This document shows, in pieces, positions 2,569-43,438 of a DNA stretch of 64,000 bases. Both the position numbers and the translations under genes were made by a program. The notes under the pieces are model-generated. The model did not search any database, was not told the DNA's origin, and saw nothing but the letters and a program-made list of their open reading frames with translations. Origin of the DNA: [Actinobacillus] rossii (GTDB lineage: Bacteria; Pseudomonadota; Gammaproteobacteria; Enterobacterales; Pasteurellaceae); NCBI GenBank assembly GCA_900444965.1, contig UFRQ01000003.1:496001-560000 (forward strand), given 5' to 3'. Each line of letters begins with the position of its first letter. Position 1 is the stretch's first letter.

Positions 2569-3822
2569 ATGCAATACAAGCTAACGGACACGAAAATTAG
2601 ACAAGCCAAGAGTAAGGATAAAGATTATCCCCTTGCCGACGGTGGTGGATTGCGTTTAATCGTGCGCGCTAACGGCTCAAAGGTTTTTGTTTTTAACTAC
2701 AACCGACCTTACACCAAAAAGAAAAACAACATCACTTTGGGGGCTTATCCTGAAATATCCCTAAAACAAGCAAGAGAGCGACACGCACAAGCGCGCGCCC
2801 TACTGGCTCAAGATATAGACCCAGTTCAACAGCGCGAACAGGACAAGCGAGAACAGGCAAATAAACTTGATCGCACATTTGGGAAAATGGCTGTGAATTG
2901 GTTTGAGCAACGAAAACAACAAGCCAACTTTTCAGAACGCACTGCAAAAGATACATGGGCTTTATTTGAACGACATATTTTGCCCAATTTTGCGCAATAC
3001 CCAATCACAGAAATTACGCCATTAATTGCCATTAATGCACTAAAACCGCTTGAAAAAGACGGCAAACTAGAAACAGTGCGTAAAGTTATAGGGAAGTTAA
3101 ACGATGTGATGAAATTTGCGTTACACCGTGGCTTTATTTCCACCAACAATTTAAGCGATATTCATAAAGAATTTGATAAACCGGTCACACAGGGAATGAA
3201 AACGATCACCCCTGAAGAAATAGAAGAATTTCTAACCGCGCTTTATCAAGAGAAAAATAATCAGCGTTTTCAGTTAAATGCTTTCTATGCGGTGATGTTA
3301 GTCATGTTTACTGGTGGACGACCGTCTGAAATAGCCAAAGCAAAATGGAGTGATATTAATTTTGATGAGCGGGTATGGGTTTATTCTGTTCAGAAAGGTA
3401 ACAGGAATTTACCACAAGGACGAGTGCATAAAGTGACACTATCAAGCCAAGTATTAAAGCTCTTTGAAAAAGTGCGTGAATATAATCAGCTTGTACAGCC
3501 AAATTTAAATAGCGATTATGTTTTTGCGAGTTCTTTATCTAGGAAAAAAGGACATATTTCAATCGAAACAATGCGCAACGCGATAATTAAGAGCTTAGGC
3601 GAGAACCGTTTAACAACCCACGGTATAAGACACTTATTCAGTACGACACTAAATGAGCAAGAATATAACGCAGATTGGATTGAGAGAGCGTTATCACATA
3701 AAGACAAAAATACGATCAGGGGCTTTTATAACAAAGCCGAATATTTAGAACACCGCTTTAAAATGCTTCAAGCATGGGCGGATTATTTAGAAGATAAAGC
3801 ACCCGAGAAGTTATTTTCTTAG
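2569..3822 (+). CDS. int: P4-type tyrosine integrase
   Basis: A 417-residue site-specific recombinase. The N-terminus (YKLTDTKIRQAK, LADGGGLRLIVRANGSKVF) is the arm-binding domain typical of P4-like integrases. A SAM-like core-binding domain follows at about 100-190, then the catalytic domain with Arg251 (TGGRPSE), His351 and Arg354 (THGIRH), His377 (ALSHKD) and Tyr387 (GFYNKAEY), so all catalytic residues are intact. I chose the ATG at 2569 over the upstream TTG at 2542 because GATGAG sits just before it and MQYKLTD is where family members start. It reads inward from the selC att site it should recognise. Confidence 0.93.
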   Translation: MQYKLTDTKIRQAKSKDKDYPLADGGGLRLIVRANGSKVFVFNYNRPYTKKKNNITLGAYPEISLKQARERHAQARALLAQDIDPVQQREQDKREQANKLDRTFGKMAVNWFEQRKQQANFSERTAKDTWALFERHILPNFAQYPITEITPLIAINALKPLEKDGKLETVRKVIGKLNDVMKFALHRGFISTNNLSDIHKEFDKPVTQGMKTITPEEIEEFLTALYQEKNNQRFQLNAFYAVMLVMFTGGRPSEIAKAKWSDINFDERVWVYSVQKGNRNLPQGRVHKVTLSSQVLKLFEKVREYNQLVQPNLNSDYVFASSLSRKKGHISIETMRNAIIKSLGENRLTTHGIRHLFSTTLNEQEYNADWIERALSHKDKNTIRGFYNKAEYLEHRFKMLQAWADYLEDKAPEKLFS

Positions 3823-3937
3823 TGCGTAGAACAAAGAACAACTAGGCGCGGAGTAATTAACCGAGCCGAAAGAAAGCATTAACGCCCTATTTGCTTTTTG
3901 TTGTTCTTTCTTTTCATCAATAGGGCAAGGGGCGATT
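3823..3937 (+). promoter_or_regulatory. Leader between int and the next gene, with inverted repeats
   Basis: This 115-base gap holds two nested complementary pairs: AAGAACAAC (about 3834-3842) with GTTGTTCTT (about 3900-3908), and GCCCTATT (about 3883-3890) with AATAGGGC (about 3919-3926). The second pair ends beside the AAGGGG ribosome site of the next gene, so folding could control its translation. No long U-run follows, so it is not a standard terminator. Function unknown. Confidence 0.35.
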
Positions 3938-4951
3938 ATGGCACTTCCATTATTAGAACGTTATAGCTTAAACCAAGCTATAAATTTTATTAAAAATAGA
4001 ACAGGCGAACAGCTAACTAGGGAAGATCTCTTAGAATATGCAATTACAGGGCATTTAAAAATAGGTATTTTTATTGATGTTTTTTGCGACACCTTAAGCA
4101 AGATAGGATCAAATGACTGCCAAAATCTGGAATTAAAGCATTTTGAAAGTCCTATTCTTCACTCTGATGAATATCCTAAATGGGCAAATCCAAAATCATT
4201 ATTACATAAACAGATAGCGAGATTTTGCGATGGATTTGTTGATATATATGCTGATTTATTATTTATGGATGATAATCAAGAATATAATGCAATTTCTTTT
4301 GAAGAACGTAAAAAAGCATTAGAGTCTAGTCTAGATTCCTTTCTAGAAGAATTAAAAAGCGGTAAATTACACCCAATAGAACCTACAGATGAAGTGAAAT
4401 TTAAAACTAAAGATTCTGATAATGATAGATATGAAAAAATATCATGGTTACTACACGGAAAACTAAATTTTAAGGGTTTTGTCTATCTTCAGCCTTATTT
4501 ATTAAATCAACTAAAACCAAGAGTTCAACTTGATGAAAATGTTGTTGATTATGTATTTGATAAATTGATATTTGACAGTGTTGAATTTCCTGATAGTAAG
4601 ATTAAAGCCTTTCTTTCATTTGAGCTCAATATGGATAATTGTGATTATTTAGATGACGAAGAATATGAGAAAGCCCAATATAATAAAATTTCAATCAATG
4701 ATTTGATCATATTTAAAGATGATTTATTAAATTTTATCAATGAGGATAATAGAGAAGTTAATTTGAATGACACCCTTTATTTACTAGGCGAAGTAATCAA
4801 TACTGTTAAATCAAAAACAAAAAAATGGACACAGTCCACAATCATTGATGAAATTCTCACTCAACGACAAGGAAAGCAAATAAGCGGTTTAGAAAAACGA
4901 AAAATAGAAGAATATTTCAGCTCTGCTAATAAACTTTTTAAATCTAAATAA
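3938..4951 (+). CDS. Hypothetical protein of the selC element
   Basis: A 337-residue acidic, lysine-rich, probably cytosolic protein with no signal peptide or membrane segment. I do not recognise its family. It opens with MALPLLERYSLNQAINFI followed by a helix-turn-helix-like segment (GEQLTREDLLEYAITGHLKI) of the sort often seen at the N-terminus of mobile-element regulatory proteins. The C-terminal part (QSTIIDEILTQRQGKQISGL) also looks helical. The start has a strong AAGGGG ribosome site. Base composition is lower in GC than the flanking int gene. It stands as a single gene before a clear terminator. Confidence 0.7.
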   Translation: MALPLLERYSLNQAINFIKNRTGEQLTREDLLEYAITGHLKIGIFIDVFCDTLSKIGSNDCQNLELKHFESPILHSDEYPKWANPKSLLHKQIARFCDGFVDIYADLLFMDDNQEYNAISFEERKKALESSLDSFLEELKSGKLHPIEPTDEVKFKTKDSDNDRYEKISWLLHGKLNFKGFVYLQPYLLNQLKPRVQLDENVVDYVFDKLIFDSVEFPDSKIKAFLSFELNMDNCDYLDDEEYEKAQYNKISINDLIIFKDDLLNFINEDNREVNLNDTLYLLGEVINTVKSKTKKWTQSTIIDEILTQRQGKQISGLEKRKIEEYFSSANKLFKSK

Positions 4952-4958
4952 CCCAATC

Positions 4959-4984
4959 AACGCCCAATCAAAGGGCGTTTTTTA
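4959..4984 (+). terminator. Rho-independent terminator
   Basis: Stem AACGCCC / GGGCGTT with loop AATCAAA and a following run of six T. It ends the transcription unit of the preceding gene. Confidence 0.85.
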
Positions 4985-5133
4985 TTCCCTAAATTCTTTT
5001 CAAATCAATCTGTTATTTTCGCACCGAAAAAATCTTTTTCGCTTGCGATGATCTTATTTCTGCTATTTCCCATAATCCCACCAGTTGCAACACACATCAA
5101 CCATTAACTTTATAAATCAACTGGGGAAACATT

Positions 5134-5376
5134 ATGACTATCGAAAAACGATACTCACTCAAAGACCTGAAACACCTTACAGGCACTTCACACGCTTATA
5201 TCTACAAGCAAATTCAAAAAGGCAATCTAGCCAAACCCGAGAAATGGGGACGCGCGTCACGTTGGAAAGAAAGCGACGTTAACGCTTGGCTTGAAACATT
5301 AGACCGTGGTTTACAAGATAACTCTCATTTAGTGGACTCACGTTTAACTGATACTCAAGTGAATATTAATTCTTAA
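5134..5376 (+). CDS. AlpA-family transcriptional regulator
   Basis: An 80-residue MerR-like helix-turn-helix protein. The segment YSLKDLKHLTGTSHAYIYKQIQ is followed by FPKP-like wing residues (LAKPEKWGRASRWKESDVNAWL), the classic AlpA/excisionase layout. In P4-like and PICI satellites such proteins switch on integrase or excision genes. Start supported by CTGGGGA upstream. It begins a tightly spaced cluster of small genes reading away from int. The C-terminal 20 residues are polar and probably disordered. Confidence 0.85.
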   Translation: MTIEKRYSLKDLKHLTGTSHAYIYKQIQKGNLAKPEKWGRASRWKESDVNAWLETLDRGLQDNSHLVDSRLTDTQVNINS

Positions 5377-5392
5377 TCTATGGAGTGAAGAA

Positions 5393-5674
5393 ATGGAATT
5401 AACTAACACTTCAACAGCAAGCCAAAGAGCCCTAATCAAAGCATTGTTAAGAGAACGACCACATAGCACGTTAGAGCTAAGAGCAAAGGGGATTTGCTCA
5501 CCTGCTCCGCGCATTATGGAATTAAAAAAACAAGGTTATGAAATCATCACTAGCACCCGAACAGAAATAGACCAATCAGGCATAAAACACAATAGGATTG
5601 CAGTTTACACCCTACTAAGTGAACCACAAGGCGACCACCAACAACACAAAGGACAGTATGAAAATGACAAATAA
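5393..5674 (+). CDS. Small winged helix-turn-helix protein (HTH_39-like)
   Basis: A 93-residue protein with one DNA-binding domain: SQRALIKALLRERPHSTLEL, then RIMELKKQGYEIIT, which fits the phage helix-turn-helix family Pfam HTH_39 as I remember it. It lies 16 bases after alpA with GGAGTG upstream of its ATG. The last codons overlap the start of the Rha gene, so the two are probably translated together. The hydrophilic tail after residue 78 may be disordered. Likely an element control gene; target unknown. Confidence 0.7.
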   Translation: MELTNTSTASQRALIKALLRERPHSTLELRAKGICSPAPRIMELKKQGYEIITSTRTEIDQSGIKHNRIAVYTLLSEPQGDHQQHKGQYENDK

Positions 5675-6371
5675 CTACCCTATCACCGCAGATTTATTTA
5701 CGTATATCGTTAAAGACATCAAAGGCAATGCAATGACAACTAGTCTTGATGTTGCGCGTGTTTTTGGCAAACAGCATAAAAACGTTTTACAAGCTATCGA
5801 AAATTTAGATTGTTCAGATGATTTTAACGAGCTGAATTTTCAGCTGGTTAAATACATTGACGAAAAAGGCGAGAAACGTCCGATGTACAGAATGACCCGA
5901 GACGGCTTTTCATTTTTGGTCATGGGTTTTCGTGGCAAGAAAGCGGCTGAATTTAAAGAGAAGTTTATTCAACGATTTAATGAAATGGAAAGTTGGATCG
6001 GCAAACGCTACCAATTAAAACACGACCAACACCGCATGAATGACGCTATTCAATACCGTGAAACCATTACAGGCAAGCAAAATAAACACGCTTACGCACA
6101 GGAAAACAATTTGATTTATCTCGTGGCACTAGGGAAAACGCGCAAACAATGGCTACAGGCGCAAGGATTGCCTACAGATGACGAGATACGCCAACACTTA
6201 ACCGCAAAACAGCTTGAACTAATCGACATGTTAACCAGTGAAAACGCAACGATGATCAAGTTAGGAATGAATTATGAGAGCCGAAAAGCGCAGTTAACTT
6301 TTAGTGCGACTTATTTCAAGGTACGTAATGGATTAATCAACAAACAAGGAACAAGCACAGTAACGCAATAG
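5658..6371 (+). CDS. Rha-family phage regulatory protein
   Basis: 237 residues. The N-terminal half is a clear Rha domain: TTSLDVARVFGKQHKNVLQA, then the conserved YRMTRDGFSFLVMGFRGKKA and a helix containing FIQRFNEME. Rha proteins are found in lambdoid phages and satellites and interfere with phage growth in some hosts. The C-terminal half, after about 120, is helical and I do not recognise it. I chose the ATG at 5658 because AAAGGACAGT lies directly before it; an earlier ATG at 5619 lacks a ribosome site and would overlap the previous gene more deeply. Confidence 0.82.
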   Translation: MKMTNNYPITADLFTYIVKDIKGNAMTTSLDVARVFGKQHKNVLQAIENLDCSDDFNELNFQLVKYIDEKGEKRPMYRMTRDGFSFLVMGFRGKKAAEFKEKFIQRFNEMESWIGKRYQLKHDQHRMNDAIQYRETITGKQNKHAYAQENNLIYLVALGKTRKQWLQAQGLPTDDEIRQHLTAKQLELIDMLTSENATMIKLGMNYESRKAQLTFSATYFKVRNGLINKQGTSTVTQ

Positions 6372-37119: not shown

Positions 37120-37163
37120 AAAGTGCGGTCAAAAATGCATTGTTTTTTGACCGCACTTTTTTT
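37120..37163 (+). terminator. Inverted uptake-sequence pair, terminator of glpQ
   Basis: AAAGTGCGGTCAAAAA (37120-37135) pairs with TTTTTTGACCGCACTTT (37143-37159) followed by more T. Confidence 0.85.
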
Positions 37164-37168
37164 AAAAT

Positions 37169-37196
37169 TATGTTATATATTTAAGTATATAACGAT
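37169..37196. promoter_or_regulatory. ModE-like operator upstream of the metal-uptake operon
   Basis: A perfect inverted repeat GTTATATA (37172-37179) / TATATAAC (37186-37193) with a 6-base spacer. It fits the ModE binding pattern ATCGnTATATA-N6-TATATAnCGAT, as I recall it, at 17 of 20 fixed positions; the right half TATATAACGAT is exact. It lies 14 bases before the first gene, so ModE with molybdate would repress. Confidence 0.7.
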
Positions 37197-37209
37197 TTTA
37201 AGTTTATTT

Positions 37210-38232
37210 ATGATTACACGTCGATTTTTTGTAAAAAAATTTTTTCTTGGAATGTCTCTTTTGGCTTTTCCAAAACTTGTTTTTTCTCAACAATATAATT
37301 TGATCTTATTGCAAGGGGTTATTCAATCGTTTCCAAAACGTATATTAAGTGCGGGTAGAGTCTCAGATGTTTTACTGATTTCTTTATGCCCTGAAAAGCT
37401 AGTCGGTATTTCTACTGAAATGAAACAACTTGATAAACAATATCTTTCTGATCAAGTTCGTAATTTACCTTATATTGGACGATTAGCAGGACGAGGGTCA
37501 ACGATGTCAATAGAAAAAATATTAGCAACACAAGCTGATTTGATTGTGGATACGGGTACTGTAAATCAAACTTTTATCTCTACAGCACAAAAAGTTTATC
37601 AACAAACACAAATTCCTTATCTTATTGTATCTGGTAAATTAATGGATACTTCTCAACAATTTAAGCAACTAGGCGATTTACTTGGTGTATCAGAACGCGC
37701 TGAAAAATTAGCAAATTTTGCTGAACGTATTTTAACTAAAACTCACAATTTGGGAGCCTATAAATCAATAAAATTTTATCTTGCTCGTGGTATTGATGGG
37801 TTAGAAACAGCTTTGCAAGGCGCTATTCATACGGAAGCTATTGATTGGGTTGGAGGAATCAATGTAACTAGTAGTGCTGGGGAAAAATTGTTAACTCGTA
37901 TTTCTATGGAGCAATTATTTCATTGGCAGCCAGATATTATTTTGACACAAGATATTAATTTTTATCATAAAATTCAAAGTGATGAATTATGGCAAAAATT
38001 GTCAGCGGTGCAGAATAATAGGGTTTACCTTGTTCCATCTTCTCCTTTCGGTTGGTTAGATTCACCACCGAGTATTAATCGGTTATTAGGTTGTGCTTGG
38101 TTAGCACACATTTTGGTACCTGAAAAATTTTCTCGTAAAGAATTAGAGGCCATAACGGTAGAATATTTTCAATTATTCTATGGATATGAACTTTCTGCTC
38201 AACATTTCACCGCACTTTTAACAAATATTTAG
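37210..38232 (+). CDS. Periplasmic metal(-chelate) binding protein of a BtuF/FecB-type ABC importer, Tat-exported
   Basis: 340 residues. N-terminal twin-arginine signal TRRFFVKKFF, then a hydrophobic stretch ending about VFS-QQ. The body is a two-lobed class III binding protein: RVSDVLLISLCPEKLVG, LATQADLIVDTG, HWQPDIILTQDINF and a C-terminal PFGWLDSPPSINRLLGCAWL, typical of the iron/cobalamin/molybdate binding family. Tat export suggests cofactor or ligand loading before secretion and is unusual for this family. Start ATG 37210; the upstream frame runs through a terminator. First gene of an operon behind a ModE-like box, so molybdate, tungstate or a chelate of them is the likely ligand. Confidence 0.8.
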   Translation: MITRRFFVKKFFLGMSLLAFPKLVFSQQYNLILLQGVIQSFPKRILSAGRVSDVLLISLCPEKLVGISTEMKQLDKQYLSDQVRNLPYIGRLAGRGSTMSIEKILATQADLIVDTGTVNQTFISTAQKVYQQTQIPYLIVSGKLMDTSQQFKQLGDLLGVSERAEKLANFAERILTKTHNLGAYKSIKFYLARGIDGLETALQGAIHTEAIDWVGGINVTSSAGEKLLTRISMEQLFHWQPDIILTQDINFYHKIQSDELWQKLSAVQNNRVYLVPSSPFGWLDSPPSINRLLGCAWLAHILVPEKFSRKELEAITVEYFQLFYGYELSAQHFTALLTNI

Positions 38233-38241
38233 GTTGGTCAA

Positions 38242-39222
38242 ATGCTTAAATTAAAGTTTATAATTCCTCCTTTGTTGTTAAGTTTGGCACTTATCTTTTC
38301 AATTCAATCTGGTCAAATGCCTATTTCATTACAGGAACTTTGGCAGGCATTATTGCAAAATGATGTACAAAACTCAGCTGATATTGTTCTTTGGAATATT
38401 AGGTTTCCACGTATTCTAACCGCAATTTTAGTAGGTGCTGCGCTTTCTGTTGCGGGAGCAACTTATCAAGGTATGTTCAAAAATCCCTTAGTTTCTCCTG
38501 ATATCTTAGGCGTTACTTCAGGGGCAAGTTTAGGGGCTGTATTCGCTATTTACTTAGAATTACCACTATGGAATATTCAAATCTTTGCTTTTATAAGTGG
38601 GCTTATTGCTGTTTTTTTAGTTTCTTTTTTAGCTCATATGGCGCGTAAACAAGATCCTATTTTATCCCTTGTTCTAGCTGGTGTGGCAATTTCCTCATTA
38701 CTTGGCGCAGGAATTTCATTATTAAAAATTCTTTCGGATCCTTATAGTCAATTAAGTTCAATCACATTTTGGTTATTAGGTGGATTAAATATGGCGTCCT
38801 TTGATGATTTAAAATTTGTGACACCATTAGTATTAATAGGACTTTTACCATTAATATTATTACGTTGGAGAATGAATTTATTGAGTTTGGAAGATGATGA
38901 AAGTCAAACTTTGGGTATTAATGTTTTTAGAACAAGATTACTTTTTATTTTTTCTGCAACATTGATGACATCAGCGGTTGTCTCTATTACAGGAATTATT
39001 GGTTGGATTGGTTTGGTTATTCCACATATTTCACGGCTTTGGGTCGGAGCAGATTTTCGTTATTTGTTACCAACAAGTTTGTTTATTGGTTCTGCCTTTT
39101 TAGTCTTTACTGATACGATTGCGCGTTCTTTATTTGCTATTGAAATTCCGCTAGGCGTGATTACTGATTTTATTGGTGCACCTTTTTTCCTAGGGTTGTT
39201 AATTCGGAGTGGTCAACGATGA
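38242..39222 (+). CDS. BtuC/FecCD-type ABC permease
   Basis: 326 residues, about nine to ten membrane helices. Family patterns: LWNIRFPRILTAILVGAALS, GMFKNPLVSPDILGVTSGAS and ITGIIGWIGLVIPHISRLWV. Forms the homodimeric channel of the importer with the next gene product. Architecture like H. influenzae MolB. It starts 9 bases after the binding-protein gene; its stop overlaps the ATPase start by 4 bases. Confidence 0.9.
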   Translation: MLKLKFIIPPLLLSLALIFSIQSGQMPISLQELWQALLQNDVQNSADIVLWNIRFPRILTAILVGAALSVAGATYQGMFKNPLVSPDILGVTSGASLGAVFAIYLELPLWNIQIFAFISGLIAVFLVSFLAHMARKQDPILSLVLAGVAISSLLGAGISLLKILSDPYSQLSSITFWLLGGLNMASFDDLKFVTPLVLIGLLPLILLRWRMNLLSLEDDESQTLGINVFRTRLLFIFSATLMTSAVVSITGIIGWIGLVIPHISRLWVGADFRYLLPTSLFIGSAFLVFTDTIARSLFAIEIPLGVITDFIGAPFFLGLLIRSGQR

Positions 39223-39968
39223 TTGAGCTTAAACAGTTAAGTTTTGGCTATCGATTTCCTTTAGCTGAACAACTCAATCTTTGTTTTCAAACAGGTAAAA
39301 TTACTGCATTACTTGGTTCTAATGGCTGCGGAAAAACAACATTATTGAAGACAATTTTGGGTATATTGAAGCCTTTTCAAGGTGAAATATTTATTCAAAA
39401 TAGACCACACATTGCATATTCTCAAAAAGAATTAGCCTCTTTGATAGGTTATGTACCTCAAGCGCATCATGGGATTTTTGCTTTTCGTGTATTAGATATT
39501 GTGTTAATGGGAAGAACTGCTTTTTTTAGTTGGTTCAGTTCGCCTAAATTATCAGACATTCAAGTGGCTAAAAATTGTTTAGCACGTTTAGGTATTTTAA
39601 CTTTACAGGATAAAATTTATACGCAATTAAGTGGTGGAGAACGTCAGTTAGTGTTGATTGCACGGGCTTTAGCACAACAACCTCAATGTTTAATTATGGA
39701 TGAGCCAACATCAAATTTAGATTTTGGTAATCAAATTCGCGTACTAGAACAAATAGTTCAATTAAAGCAACAAGGGTTGACTATTATTTTTACTACACAC
39801 CAACCTGAACAAGCATTTTATTATACTGATCAAGTTGTACTTTTCCATCAAGGAAAAATCATGGCTCAAGGCTTTCCACAAGATGTAATGATCATAGAGC
39901 ATTTAAGTAAAATTTACCATTTGGATAAACATCAAATACAACGAGCCTTACCTTTTTTAAGAGAATAA
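39219..39968 (+). CDS. ABC importer ATPase (BtuD/FecE/MolC type)
   Basis: 249 residues. Walker A LLGSNGCGKTTLLK, Q-loop IGYVPQAHHG, signature LSGGERQLVLIARALA, Walker B CLIMDEPTSNLDFG, H-loop TTHQPEQ. Energises the permease encoded before it. The closing residues are not shared with the iron-type FecE proteins I remember. Confidence 0.92.
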   Translation: MIELKQLSFGYRFPLAEQLNLCFQTGKITALLGSNGCGKTTLLKTILGILKPFQGEIFIQNRPHIAYSQKELASLIGYVPQAHHGIFAFRVLDIVLMGRTAFFSWFSSPKLSDIQVAKNCLARLGILTLQDKIYTQLSGGERQLVLIARALAQQPQCLIMDEPTSNLDFGNQIRVLEQIVQLKQQGLTIIFTTHQPEQAFYYTDQVVLFHQGKIMAQGFPQDVMIIEHLSKIYHLDKHQIQRALPFLRE

Positions 39969-39972
39969 TAAG

Positions 39973-40776
39973 ATGAAAACAATTAATGATATTAATTTTG
40001 ATGAACTTTATAAAAATCATATTCAGCTTGCAACGAGAGAACCCAAGCAACCTGCGGATTGGGATAAAAAAGCAGAAAAGATGCAAACAAGTCAATTTGA
40101 TTTAAAAAATGATTATGTAAAAGATTTTTTAGCACGAATGGACTTAGATGGTGTTGAATCTGTACTTGATGTAGGTTGTGGCGGTGGAGCGATTGCATTA
40201 TCAGTAGCCCCTTATGTTTCACAAGTCCACGCTTTAGATTACAGCCAAGGTATGTTGGATTTATTACAAAAACGAGCTGGGGTATTCGGTATTGATAATG
40301 TTTCTCCAATTTTACGTGCTTGGGATGATGATTGGTCTGATATTCCAGAATGTGATGTCTGTGTTTCTTCTCGTTCATCTATGGTTAATGATCTTCAATC
40401 TTCGTTAAACAAACTTAATTCGAAAGCAAAAAAAGCAGTTTATATGACAATGACGGTAGATAAAGACTTTATTCATCGTGATGTGCTGAAATTTATAGGG
40501 CGTGATGGAGTGGGGTTTCCAAATTATATTTACGCAGTCAATATGCTTTATCAGCAAGGATATCGTGTTTCTGTTGATTTTATTGAAAATAGTTGTGGAT
40601 TAATTGAGCCTACAGATATAACTGAACAAGACTTTATTCGTTCTGTAAAATGGTCGATAGGATCGGATTTAAGTGATGTTGAGATTCGTAAATTACAGGA
40701 TTTTTATCATCAAAATAAAGGTGAAATTGATGTTAGACCAAGTAAAGCTTGGGCTTATTTAAGTTGGAAAAAATGA
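39973..40776 (+). CDS. Class I SAM-dependent methyltransferase of the metal-uptake operon
   Basis: 267 residues. Motif I VLDVGCGGGAIALSVAPYV and the acidic end of strand 2 in HALDYSQGMLDLL show a Rossmann-fold methyltransferase; VCVSSRSSMVNDL follows where motif IV is expected. The substrate is unknown. It lies 4 bases after the ATPase gene and is the last gene of the operon, so it should act on the transported compound or on its chelator. No signal peptide: cytosolic. Methyltransferases beside FecCD-type transporters occur elsewhere, but I know of no assigned role. Confidence 0.8.
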   Translation: MKTINDINFDELYKNHIQLATREPKQPADWDKKAEKMQTSQFDLKNDYVKDFLARMDLDGVESVLDVGCGGGAIALSVAPYVSQVHALDYSQGMLDLLQKRAGVFGIDNVSPILRAWDDDWSDIPECDVCVSSRSSMVNDLQSSLNKLNSKAKKAVYMTMTVDKDFIHRDVLKFIGRDGVGFPNYIYAVNMLYQQGYRVSVDFIENSCGLIEPTDITEQDFIRSVKWSIGSDLSDVEIRKLQDFYHQNKGEIDVRPSKAWAYLSWKK

Positions 40777-40840
40777 TTTGTTTTTAACAGATAAAAGTGC
40801 GGTTAAAAAAAGTGAATTTTTATTAAGGTTTTTTCTACTT

Positions 40841-40868
40841 ATCGTTATATTATTTTATATATAATGAA
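40841..40868. promoter_or_regulatory. Second ModE-like operator, before the TonB-receptor operon
   Basis: ATCGTTATATT (40841-40851), 6-base spacer, TATATAATGAA (40858-40868): 17 of 20 fixed positions of the ModE pattern as I recall it, with the same spacing as the box at 37169-37196. It overlaps a TATAAT-like -10 (40860-40865), 16 bases before the next start codon. Confidence 0.65.
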
Positions 40869-40884
40869 ATTGAATTTATAGAAA

Positions 40885-41376
40885 ATGAAATTATTAACTG
40901 TTGTTGGAAAATTTTTATTGATTTGTGGTTTACTCATTGGTTTGTTTACTCTCGTTGGATCTGCAATAGGATTATATTTTGGTTTATTTGGCGGGACGAT
41001 ATTAATAACAATTCATTTATGGGCAGGTAGCTTTTTTGTTTCGTTTGCTCTTATTCATTTTACTCACCGCCGTAGAAAGTGGAGAAAATTGATAACACAA
41101 ACTCAAGATGTTTTGTTTACACAAAAATACCCTTCTTATTGCAATTTAGATCGTTTATTAATGACATTTGAAAACGTTTCTGTTGTGACGTTAGCTGATA
41201 CGTTGCAACTTCCTTTAGAAACTCTTTTATTCGAATTTCAACAAGGAAAAATTGCCATTTCAGATCCTGATAAAACATTGCGATATTTGGTGGGAGAAAA
41301 TGATGAAAAATTATTTTCAGCAATCACTATTGCAATTAATTTACGATTTAATTACCTAACGGAGAAACATAAATGA
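40885..41376 (+). CDS. Small membrane protein coupled to the TonB receptor (DUF4405-like?)
   Basis: 163 residues. Two hydrophobic helices (about 8-33 and 37-57) with His residues at the second helix (ITIHLWAG, FALIHFTHRRRK), reminiscent of haem- or metal-binding two-helix proteins such as DUF4405, then a cytosolic domain of about 100 residues (LADTLQLPLETLLFEFQQGK). No family firmly recognised. Its TGA overlaps the receptor ATG, so the two are made together. It may be the inner-membrane or regulatory partner of the uptake system. Confidence 0.65.
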   Translation: MKLLTVVGKFLLICGLLIGLFTLVGSAIGLYFGLFGGTILITIHLWAGSFFVSFALIHFTHRRRKWRKLITQTQDVLFTQKYPSYCNLDRLLMTFENVSVVTLADTLQLPLETLLFEFQQGKIAISDPDKTLRYLVGENDEKLFSAITIAINLRFNYLTEKHK

Positions 41377-43391
41377 AGAGAACCTTACTTTGTACAGCAA
41401 TAACATTAGCTTGTAGTAGCGTTTACGCTGAGACATTTGAACTAGGAAAAATTGAAGTAATTGCTGAAAAGCTAGATAACAATGTTGCTGTCGCAGACCA
41501 AACTCAGTTGCAACAAAACCAAATTATCAATGTTGCTCAGGTTGCTAAAATTACTTCAGGCGTGTTTTTTCAACGAGGTGGAGGTCGTGGAGAGCAAAAT
41601 TTAATGGTTCGTGGATTTGATTCTCGTCGTGTACCTATTTTTATTGATGGTATTCCAGTGTATGTACCTTATGATGGTGCAATGGACTTAGGGCGATTCA
41701 CGACATTTGATCTTGCAGAAATTGATATTTCTAAAGGTGCAAGTTCTGTATTGTATGGTGCAAATACGATGGGTGGTGCAGTAAATTTAGTGACACGTAA
41801 ACCAAGCAAAGACTTGGAGGGTAATATTGGTTATGGTTACCAAACAGGGCGAAGTGGACATACTGCAGGAAATCAAACTTATTTTAATTTAGGCTCTAAA
41901 CAGGAGCAATTTTATGCTCAAATAAGTGGTTCTTGGTTTGAAAAACAAGGAATGCAACTTTCTCGCGATTTTCAACCTAATAGTGCGGGTGAAGAAGATG
42001 GTGGACGTGCAGAAAATTCTGTAAATCGAGATAAAAAATTAAGTTTACGTCTTGGCTATACACCAAATGCTACAGATGAGTATGCACTTTCTTATAGTAT
42101 GCAACGAGGTCAAAAACAACAACCTCTTTATACGGGAGAGGGGGCTTCAAAATATTGGCGGTGGCCTGCGTGGGATAAAAATAGTTTATACTTTTTATCT
42201 CATACCGAATTTAATAAAAGTCGGTTTTATTTGAATACGAAAGCATTTCATGACACTTTTAAGAATGATTTAGCTGCTTTTGATGATGATACTTTTACAA
42301 CACAAATGGCAAATAGTTCTTTTACAAGCCATTATCGTGATTATTCCTATGGAGCCGGTTTGGAGTTTGGCGCGAAAACGAGCGATAAAAATACATTAAA
42401 ATTATCCGCACTTTATAAAGCGGATGTGCATCGTGAAAATAATGATGGCGATCCTGTGGCACGTAGTGAAGACAGAAACTATAGCTTGGGATTAGAAGAT
42501 ACTTATAATTTTACCAAACAAACGAGAGTTATTGCAGGAGCGAGTTTTGATCGCCGTGAAGCTGTTCAGGCGCAAAATTATCAAGCGATTACCTCGGGAA
42601 ATTATGGTATTTATGAGTTTGATATAGCCGATAAAAATGCATTTAACTACCAAGTTAAATTAGCTCATAATTTCGACAAAAATGATGAATTGAGCGTAAG
42701 TTACGCGCATAAAACACGTTTTCCTACAATGAAAGATCGCTATTCACGCAGTCTTAGCCGTAATCGATTGCCAAATCCTTTTTTAAAACCTGAGATAGCT
42801 GATCATTATGAAATTGGCTATTTCCGTACATTTGATGACAGTTTTAAAGTAGAGGGTGCATTGTTCTATTCTGATGTTCGGGATGCTATCAGTGAAATTT
42901 ATACGGGGAATTTCACAACAACAAAAAATAAAAAAACGGGAAAAACACAAACTATTTATGAAGTACAAAACCAAAATGTAGGCAAAGCTGCTTATCGTGG
43001 TGTGGAGCTTGCAATTACGGCGTTTGTTAACGAGAATTTGACATTAGGTGCGAACTATACCTATTTGAATGCCAAAAATTATGATAGCGAATTAAAATTA
43101 ACAGATATTCCACGTCATAAATTTTTTGCCTATGCAGACTGGAAATTTACATCTGATTTATCATTATATCTTGCTCAAAGTGCAGAATCTGGCCGTTATA
43201 GTGCTGTTAATGGGGAAAATAAGAAATTAGCAGGTTTTGGTACAACAGATGCGAAACTTACTTATGCTATAAATAAGGATTTAATCTTTGATGTAGGAGT
43301 ATCAAATATTTTTGATAAAAACTATTATTTAAGTGAGGGTTATGCAGAGGAAGGTCGAATTTATTTTACAAATCTTAAATACCAATTCTAA
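41373..43391 (+). CDS. TonB-dependent outer-membrane receptor
   Basis: 672 residues. Signal peptide MKRTLLCTAITLACSSVYA, TonB box region ELGKIEVIAEKL, plug domain with GGGRGEQNLMVRGFDSRRVP, IFIDGIPVYVPYDG and SVLYGANTMGGAVNLVTRKP, then a 22-strand barrel ending with the C-terminal Phe (TNLKYQF). GGAGAAAC precedes the start. Located behind a ModE-like box and next to a BtuC-type importer, so it likely brings a molybdate or tungstate complex through the outer membrane. Iron or nickel chelates remain possible. Confidence 0.88.
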   Translation: MKRTLLCTAITLACSSVYAETFELGKIEVIAEKLDNNVAVADQTQLQQNQIINVAQVAKITSGVFFQRGGGRGEQNLMVRGFDSRRVPIFIDGIPVYVPYDGAMDLGRFTTFDLAEIDISKGASSVLYGANTMGGAVNLVTRKPSKDLEGNIGYGYQTGRSGHTAGNQTYFNLGSKQEQFYAQISGSWFEKQGMQLSRDFQPNSAGEEDGGRAENSVNRDKKLSLRLGYTPNATDEYALSYSMQRGQKQQPLYTGEGASKYWRWPAWDKNSLYFLSHTEFNKSRFYLNTKAFHDTFKNDLAAFDDDTFTTQMANSSFTSHYRDYSYGAGLEFGAKTSDKNTLKLSALYKADVHRENNDGDPVARSEDRNYSLGLEDTYNFTKQTRVIAGASFDRREAVQAQNYQAITSGNYGIYEFDIADKNAFNYQVKLAHNFDKNDELSVSYAHKTRFPTMKDRYSRSLSRNRLPNPFLKPEIADHYEIGYFRTFDDSFKVEGALFYSDVRDAISEIYTGNFTTTKNKKTGKTQTIYEVQNQNVGKAAYRGVELAITAFVNENLTLGANYTYLNAKNYDSELKLTDIPRHKFFAYADWKFTSDLSLYLAQSAESGRYSAVNGENKKLAGFGTTDAKLTYAINKDLIFDVGVSNIFDKNYYLSEGYAEEGRIYFTNLKYQF

Positions 43392-43410
43392 GTCTTTATT
43401 TAGAACAGAA

Positions 43411-43438
43411 AACGCTATAATAATATAGCGTTTTTTTA
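43411..43438 (+). terminator. Terminator after the TonB receptor
   Basis: AACGCTAT-AATAAT-ATAGCGTT followed by a run of T. Confidence 0.85.

Follow-up and report, generated by a model that had tools for sequence, protein, structure and literature searches.

The nearest functional relative of the locus described here is MolABC (HI1470-HI1472) of Haemophilus influenzae, which has been reported as an importer of molybdate and tungstate, and whose molB gene is repressed by molybdate via a factor that the authors, in the part of the paper drawn on here, call unknown (PMC4031551). Our locus is an island of six genes in [Actinobacillus] rossii, located within a 64-kb stretch of DNA that was analysed as a whole and is called the window below (contig UFRQ01000003.1, positions 496,001 to 560,000). 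Like MolABC, the island has a BtuCD-type permease, an ATPase and a type III binding protein; a TonB-dependent outer-membrane receptor (TBDT), a small membrane protein (SMP) and a methyltransferase are additions of the island. Orthology to MolABC was considered and rejected, as the island binding protein matched MolA with an E value of 8.3e-15, against 3.5e-183 for the MolA ortholog of a relative. No MolA ortholog was found in the genome, in which the best match to the MolA ortholog was the island's own binding protein. The island is most likely a ModE-controlled TonB-plus-ABC importer for molybdenum or tungsten, and probably represents a route of molybdenum (or tungsten) uptake that has not been described before.

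The modABC operon of Escherichia coli has the same operator consensus as the island, but its importer, which carries free molybdate across the inner membrane, belongs to another ABC type, and we know of no outer-membrane partner for it. The island differs from BtuB-BtuCDF and from the ferric-siderophore TonB/ABC systems in its ModE-type boxes and in the linkage of its TBDT relatives to modE, modABC and Mop. In Pseudomonas aeruginosa, IcmP together with a ModA secreted by the type VI secretion system has been reported as an outer-membrane molybdate route (PMC8602904); the island is a candidate for such a route as well, but unlike it the IcmP/ModA pathway, as presented in the portion cited, needs type VI secretion. 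The ModE candidate sites in Table 6 of a comparative study of deltaproteobacteria lie at mod operons only, one of which includes an additional gene whose role is not known (PMC545781). In a 2024 review of TBDTs, the word stems molybd and tungst do not occur (PMC11658791). Searches of open-access papers, judged by title, opening of the abstract or counts of terms, turned up no description of a TonB receptor for molybdenum or tungsten; an earlier prediction may exist in subscription papers.

The two island operons are collinear, and each is headed by one palindromic box (Table 1). The sequence-only reading had described these boxes as a pair of the build ATCGnTATATA-N6-TATATAnCGAT, which it took for the ModE pattern; both were found, each agreeing at 17 of the 20 fixed positions, and this pattern agrees with the E. 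coli ModE operator consensus printed in the cited part of PMC545781. Within the window, the boxes are the only consensus matches at three or fewer mismatches, a level that was reached in none of 100 dinucleotide shuffles. The genome scan that had been proposed was carried out as a pattern search: the 2.66-Mb genome contains three sites that score 17/20 or higher, namely the two island boxes and one between the divergent modE and modA genes, and the reversed-pattern control gave none. The modE gene, on whose presence the sequence-only reading depended, is located at C3:1428693-1428968 and encodes a protein with a ModE domain and a Mop domain (TIGR00637, 122 bits versus a cut-off of 98.5). The box of the same build between it and modA matches at 17/20, and a further, weaker box (15/20) lies across the beginning of the modB open reading frame (ORF). 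A looser pattern (16 fixed positions, three mismatches) showed no excess genome-wide, with 179 sites versus 234 in the control; the island boxes were its only one-mismatch sites among the matches listed. The best Fur-like match reached 12/19 in both promoters, a score of at least 12 being obtained in 785 of 3000 segments of 128 bp drawn at random from the window, and neither promoter has an exact E. coli or delta-type NikR site. Control of the island by Fur or NikR was rejected, given no site above background in either promoter; riboswitches were not searched for.

The regulon scan covered 22 Pasteurellaceae genomes (21 of the 22 TBDT carriers described below, with G069 left out, plus G003) and gave 51 sites versus one in the control. 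Among the 29 sites that lie outside the island loci examined, 13 are upstream of modE/modA, modABC, Mop, MolA-like genes or a second TBDT/BtuCDF set, and three are upstream of molybdopterin oxidoreductase operons (identified by Pfam), which we take to be TorC/TorZ-like in two cases and napF-napD-napA-like in the third. Since most of the non-island sites adjoin molybdenum genes, the motif largely marks a molybdenum regulon.

TBDT carriers were defined by a match at 1e-30 in 121 sampled Pasteurellaceae genomes, and modE was surveyed in 121 genomes likewise, all carriers included. The TBDT was found in 22 of the 121; in 21 of these the match has at least 52% identity (or consists of pieces that do), and in G069 it has 35%. 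Orthologs are present in H. haemolyticus and H. parainfluenzae. All 22 carriers have a modE gene over the cut-off, versus 87 of the 121 genomes overall (hypergeometric 2.9e-4, relatedness not corrected). The search for co-occurrence of the island genes, which the sequence-only reading had suggested, took the form of a gene-by-gene comparison of 20 Pasteurellaceae loci: the SMP was present in 17, and 14 had all three of the binding protein, the permease and the ATPase. A box of at least 15/20 was observed within 200 bp of the SMP or TBDT in 19 of the 20 loci, the single miss (L056) being at a contig edge; the binding protein has such a box at the same distance in all 15 relatives' loci where this gene was found. 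Boxes of 15/20 are not rare singly, and it is position, not mere presence, that counts; by arithmetic, the chance rate taken from the reversed pattern predicts about 0.3 boxes in 20 such promoters. Over the 353 kb spanned by the 20 loci, matches of 17/20 or higher number 19 with the real pattern and none with the reversed one. A control over all ORFs (50 of 371 with a box of at least 15) was not used, as it includes the molybdenum genes themselves and overlapping ORFs. In two loci Mop lies downstream of the TBDT with its own box, and further boxes in relatives' loci belong to modABCD, which there adjoins the ATPase, and to a second TBDT/BtuCDF set. In relative G103, the MolA ortholog (3psa, E 3.5e-183) has a 16/20 box, and modABCD and the island ABC genes stand with it in one block. 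Because of the box at this MolA ortholog, ModE is a likely candidate for the unknown molB factor, at least in G103.

A number of additional genes in these genomes were observed beside the TBDT or behind boxes. A second, distinct TBDT of about 800 amino acids, accompanied by BtuCDF-type genes and ModE boxes (L073:2163-4571, L116, L118, L124, L125, L128), may serve another molybdenum or tungsten species. In L130, a 17/20 box at 3069-3096 precedes an 809-amino-acid protein (3278-5707) with a signal-like N-terminus, which may be another TBDT. Downstream of the TBDT, two loci encode a protein of 1259-1276 amino acids with a 19/20 box (L064:4045-7875, L071:9015-12794), in which an autotransporter beta-domain was found in L071 only; it is perhaps a surface protein of the molybdenum regulon. 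In several Pasteurellaceae genera, at 12 sites in all (L110, L112-L115, L117, L123, L132, L135, L062, L063, L068), a 17-18/20 box precedes a NIF3/DUF34-like gene; this gene, identified by PF01784 in L110 only and by eye in the others, is a possible new member of the ModE regulon. The TBDT itself appears to be in pieces or to contain a stop in G048, G085, G089, G094, G103 and G105, as does the permease in G092; decay, phase variation or sequencing error may account for these broken genes.

The link between the TBDT and molybdenum genes extends beyond the Pasteurellaceae. A genome-wide TBDT alignment scan with one genome per species gave at least 524 confirmed stretches, and the best 80 were selected by the TBDT alone; the 65 of these outside the Pasteurellaceae represent the closest of the distant relatives and not all of this TBDT family. 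In 32 of the 65, a box of at least 15/20 is present in the 600 bp upstream of the TBDT. Shuffles of those upstream regions gave a mean of 0.16 and a maximum of 1 in 65 over 50 rounds, and stretches of equal length from other parts of the distant loci had such a box in 5/63, 3/64, 0/65 and 0/64 cases. The corresponding figure for the Pasteurellaceae loci in the best 80 is 13 of 14, one of 15 (L141, at a contig edge) having been dropped. In locus L155, the stretch ahead of the TBDT is just 252 bases long. The fetched stretches contain modE, Mop or modA plus modB in 35 of the 65 distant loci, and a box or a molybdenum gene in 51. Single-domain ModE genes often lie just upstream of the TBDT in Bacteroidota, Verrucomicrobiota, Methylophaga and deltaproteobacteria, and the Oryzomicrobium locus, at 69% GC, has a 19/20 box. 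BtuCDF-type genes are found in 12 distant loci, and modA plus modB in the absence of BtuCDF-type genes in 11. It should be noted that gene neighbours were assigned at a BLAST threshold of 1e-5 in loci that differ in length, so that all neighbour counts are lower bounds. Twenty hand-picked neighbours all matched ModE, Mop or ModA models in a hidden Markov model (HMM) search; the ten single-domain ModE proteins among them matched TIGR00637 at 7e-18 or better, yet below its curated cut-off.

Other TBDTs served as a control. Among 29 of them, from 19 of the same genomes, none has a box of at least 14, and none has modE, Mop or modA within about 1.5 kb. Within an equally long stretch, TBDTs of the family have modE, Mop or modA in 21 of the 65 loci, and in 6 of 20 within the control genomes. 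These 20 genomes were chosen after the loci had been seen, and 16 of them have a box of at least 15 at their family TBDT; the unbiased figure is the 32 of 65 given above. Thirty control loci had been taken, from which L238 was removed as a member of the family (434 bits to the TBDT, modE adjoining, no box), and for five of the 29 remaining TBDTs only 177-438 bases were available upstream.

The sequence-only reading had placed both operons under ModE repression, and had them together carry a molybdenum or tungsten compound across both membranes. The first claim gained support from the modE gene, the modA box, the conservation of boxes in orthologous promoters and the cross-phylum link of the TBDT to boxes and modE/mod genes; judged from these sequence features, both operons are almost certainly controlled by ModE. 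The predicted joint transport is likewise favoured by the tie of the TBDT to modE/mod genes and ModE boxes, a tie that the 29 other TBDTs lack. As ModE control and linkage to modABC and Mop point to molybdenum or tungsten, we consider it highly probable that the island is an acquisition system for one of these metals.

Several observations weigh against this interpretation. Boxes of 15/20 are by themselves not rare in this AT-rich DNA, the reversed pattern giving 22 matches at that level versus 43 real ones in the 20 Pasteurellaceae loci. Nine of the 29 non-island sites lie upstream of the NIF3/DUF34-like gene, for which we know of no role in molybdenum metabolism, and another four have no convincing target. 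Neither a box nor a molybdenum gene was found at 14 of the 65 distant loci, including both Campylobacter loci. The methyltransferase is present in only 5 of the 20 Pasteurellaceae loci and is absent from most distant ones (13 of 65 with a match, 10 of these 13 also having BtuCDF-type genes). The binding-protein fold does not separate a molybdenum ligand from ferric siderophores, and the TBDT model is closest to BtuB. Lastly, free molybdate is generally assumed to enter the periplasm via porins, and unless a chelate is involved, it is not explained why a TBDT should be needed.

One alternative is that the palindromes arose by chance in AT-rich DNA or belong to promoters, and are not operators at all. 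They are indeed AT-rich, a promoter-like match ends within box 1, and lone 15/20 matches do arise by chance; we nevertheless regard this explanation as hardly credible, given the empty shuffles, the 51 sites versus one control in 22 genomes, and the retention of boxes in orthologous promoters and across phyla, GC-rich Oryzomicrobium included. A different possibility is that a ferric-siderophore, haem, cobalamin or nickel importer has come under ModE for another reason, for example cross-talk with the iron demand of molybdoenzymes. The neighbours of the TBDT by HMM and fold are receptors for haem, siderophores and B12; siderophore and nickel binders share the binding protein's fold; and in the sources, TBDT relatives go under the names of siderophore receptor, colicin I receptor or outer-membrane cobalamin translocator. 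This alternative is very unlikely when set against the box or molybdenum gene at 51 of 65 distant loci (with boxes at none of the 29 other TBDTs of the same genomes), the modABC and Mop genes that adjoin the TBDT in several loci, and the lack of a Fur- or NikR-like site above background in either promoter.

ModE senses both oxyanions, so that its control fits either metal and does not separate molybdenum from tungsten. MolA, too, is reported to bind both molybdate and tungstate in the cited part of PMC4031551. A substrate consisting of tungstate or a tungsten complex in place of molybdenum is nonetheless improbable: the genome has seven matches to PF00384 (molybdopterin oxidoreductase), two of them with an in-frame TGA, and boxes of the relatives also precede molybdopterin oxidoreductase operons, presumably NapA- and TorZ-like, which normally encode molybdenum enzymes.

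The working of ModE, TBDTs and BtuCDF importers is established knowledge, and suggests how a molybdenum (or tungsten) importer of this composition could operate. With ample cytosolic molybdate, ModE-molybdate would occupy both operators, 13 and 16 bp upstream of the first start codons, and repress both operons; when molybdenum is scarce, ModE would be released from both. The TBDT, driven by TonB-ExbBD (two ExbD genes in the genome are over the cut-off), would then take a molybdenum (or tungsten) species through the outer membrane where porins are too slow, and the BtuF-like binding protein would pass it to the FecCD-type ABC importer. In the cytosol, the methyltransferase probably acts on the metal carrier, for instance by methylating a chelating oxygen and so releasing molybdate. 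Molybdate might be freed in the periplasm (in a ModABC route) or in the cytosol (in a BtuCDF route, where this is present with the methyltransferase). The biology of TBDTs and type III binding proteins leads us to give an even chance to a chelate as the transported ligand. More tentatively, and at somewhat below an even chance, we propose that the TBDT defines a cross-phylum family of outer-membrane transporters for molybdenum complexes (molybdophores). Its partner would be either ModABC, acting after molybdate has been released in the periplasm, or a BtuCDF-type importer, in the latter case often together with a methyltransferase that methylates the chelator and so sets the metal free in the cytosol. 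The affinity of MolA for free molybdate is reported to be weak, about 100 uM, in the part of PMC10182148 cited here; if the molybdophore proposal is correct, this would reflect the missing chelator.

If the conserved, ModE-controlled TBDT does import molybdenum or tungsten, then groups as distant from each other as Pasteurellaceae, Bacteroidota and Desulfobacterota would compete for molybdenum (or tungsten) at the outer membrane, probably in the form of a complex, and the gene family offers material for testing outer-membrane molybdenum transport and biological molybdenum chelates. ModE also becomes a candidate for the 'unknown factor' at molB in H. influenzae, and many TBDTs that are called siderophore, colicin I or B12 receptors by their sources are open to re-examination.

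The two-operon gene content claimed by the sequence-only reading was reproduced by Pfam search and ORF layout (Table 1).

Table 1. Features of the island, in window coordinates
Feature	Position	Strand	Size	Remarks
ModE-type operator 1	37169..37196	none		TATGTTATATATTTAAGTATATAACGAT; 17/20; 13 bp upstream of binding-protein start codon
Periplasmic binding protein, type III fold	37210..38232	+	340 aa	PF01497
BtuC/FecCD-type inner-membrane permease	38242..39222	+	326 aa	PF01032, E 7.9e-93
ABC ATPase	39219..39968	+	249 aa	PF00005; 4-base overlap with permease
Class I S-adenosylmethionine-dependent methyltransferase, cytosolic	39973..40776	+	267 aa	PF13649/PF13847
ModE-type operator 2	40841..40868	none		ATCGTTATATTATTTTATATATAATGAA; 17/20; 16 bp upstream of small-protein start codon
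Small membrane protein (SMP)	40885..41376	+	163 aa	no Pfam family
TonB-dependent outer-membrane receptor (TBDT)	41373..43391	+	672 aa	PF07715 plug and PF00593 barrel over cut-off; 4-base overlap with SMP
Intrinsic-terminator-like hairpin	43407..43436	+		downstream of TBDT/second operon

The association of a FecCD permease, a type III binding protein and an ABC ATPase in one operon identifies the importer as BtuCDF/FecBCDE-type, and the spacing of these genes suggests that they form one transcript. No island protein matched the ModA and ModB families (TIGR01256/TIGR02141), PF01497 and PF01032 being found instead. A ModABC importer was accordingly rejected as an identity for the island, modA and modB being located elsewhere in the genome. 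The best solved relative of the permease by sequence is HI1471 (2nq2, E 1.4e-59). The binding protein likely starts at the ATG at 37210, which corrects an earlier start call; searches used a start at 37213, leaving the query short by the first Met only. Its N-terminus, TRRFFVKK (window 37210-37280), resembles a twin-arginine signal, and an RR motif near the N-terminus is shared by 17 of 26 aligned homologs, the remainder being Sec-type in appearance. Its fold resembles MolA, siderophore binders and nickel binders alike. In the TBDT model, 525 residues aligned to BtuB, the nearest neighbour, with 18% identity over the structural alignment. Assignment of a ligand from the folds was discarded, as structural models give the fold and not the ligand. 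The methyltransferase has no close solved relative, only weak ones such as precorrin methyltransferases. Seven homologs of the SMP were found, one of them 95% alike, and the four named ones are all from Pasteurellaceae; its Pfam search gave no match, with a sub-threshold DUF4405 in one ortholog and a sub-threshold cytochrome-b561-like match in another.

The island is flanked by what we take to be glpT- and glpQ-like genes on one side and glpA/glpB-like genes on the other. The window contains 50 copies of AAGTGCGGT, where 0.41 are expected (for example at 37121-37129, 37150-37158 and 40795-40803), including an inverted pair directly upstream of the island; this is presumably the H. influenzae-type DNA uptake signal. 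Elsewhere, an identical 24-mer, CGTAAGAAAGAGGATGATATATCG, or its complement is repeated many times in the genome (for example in L010, L012 and L015), and is perhaps part of an insertion sequence.

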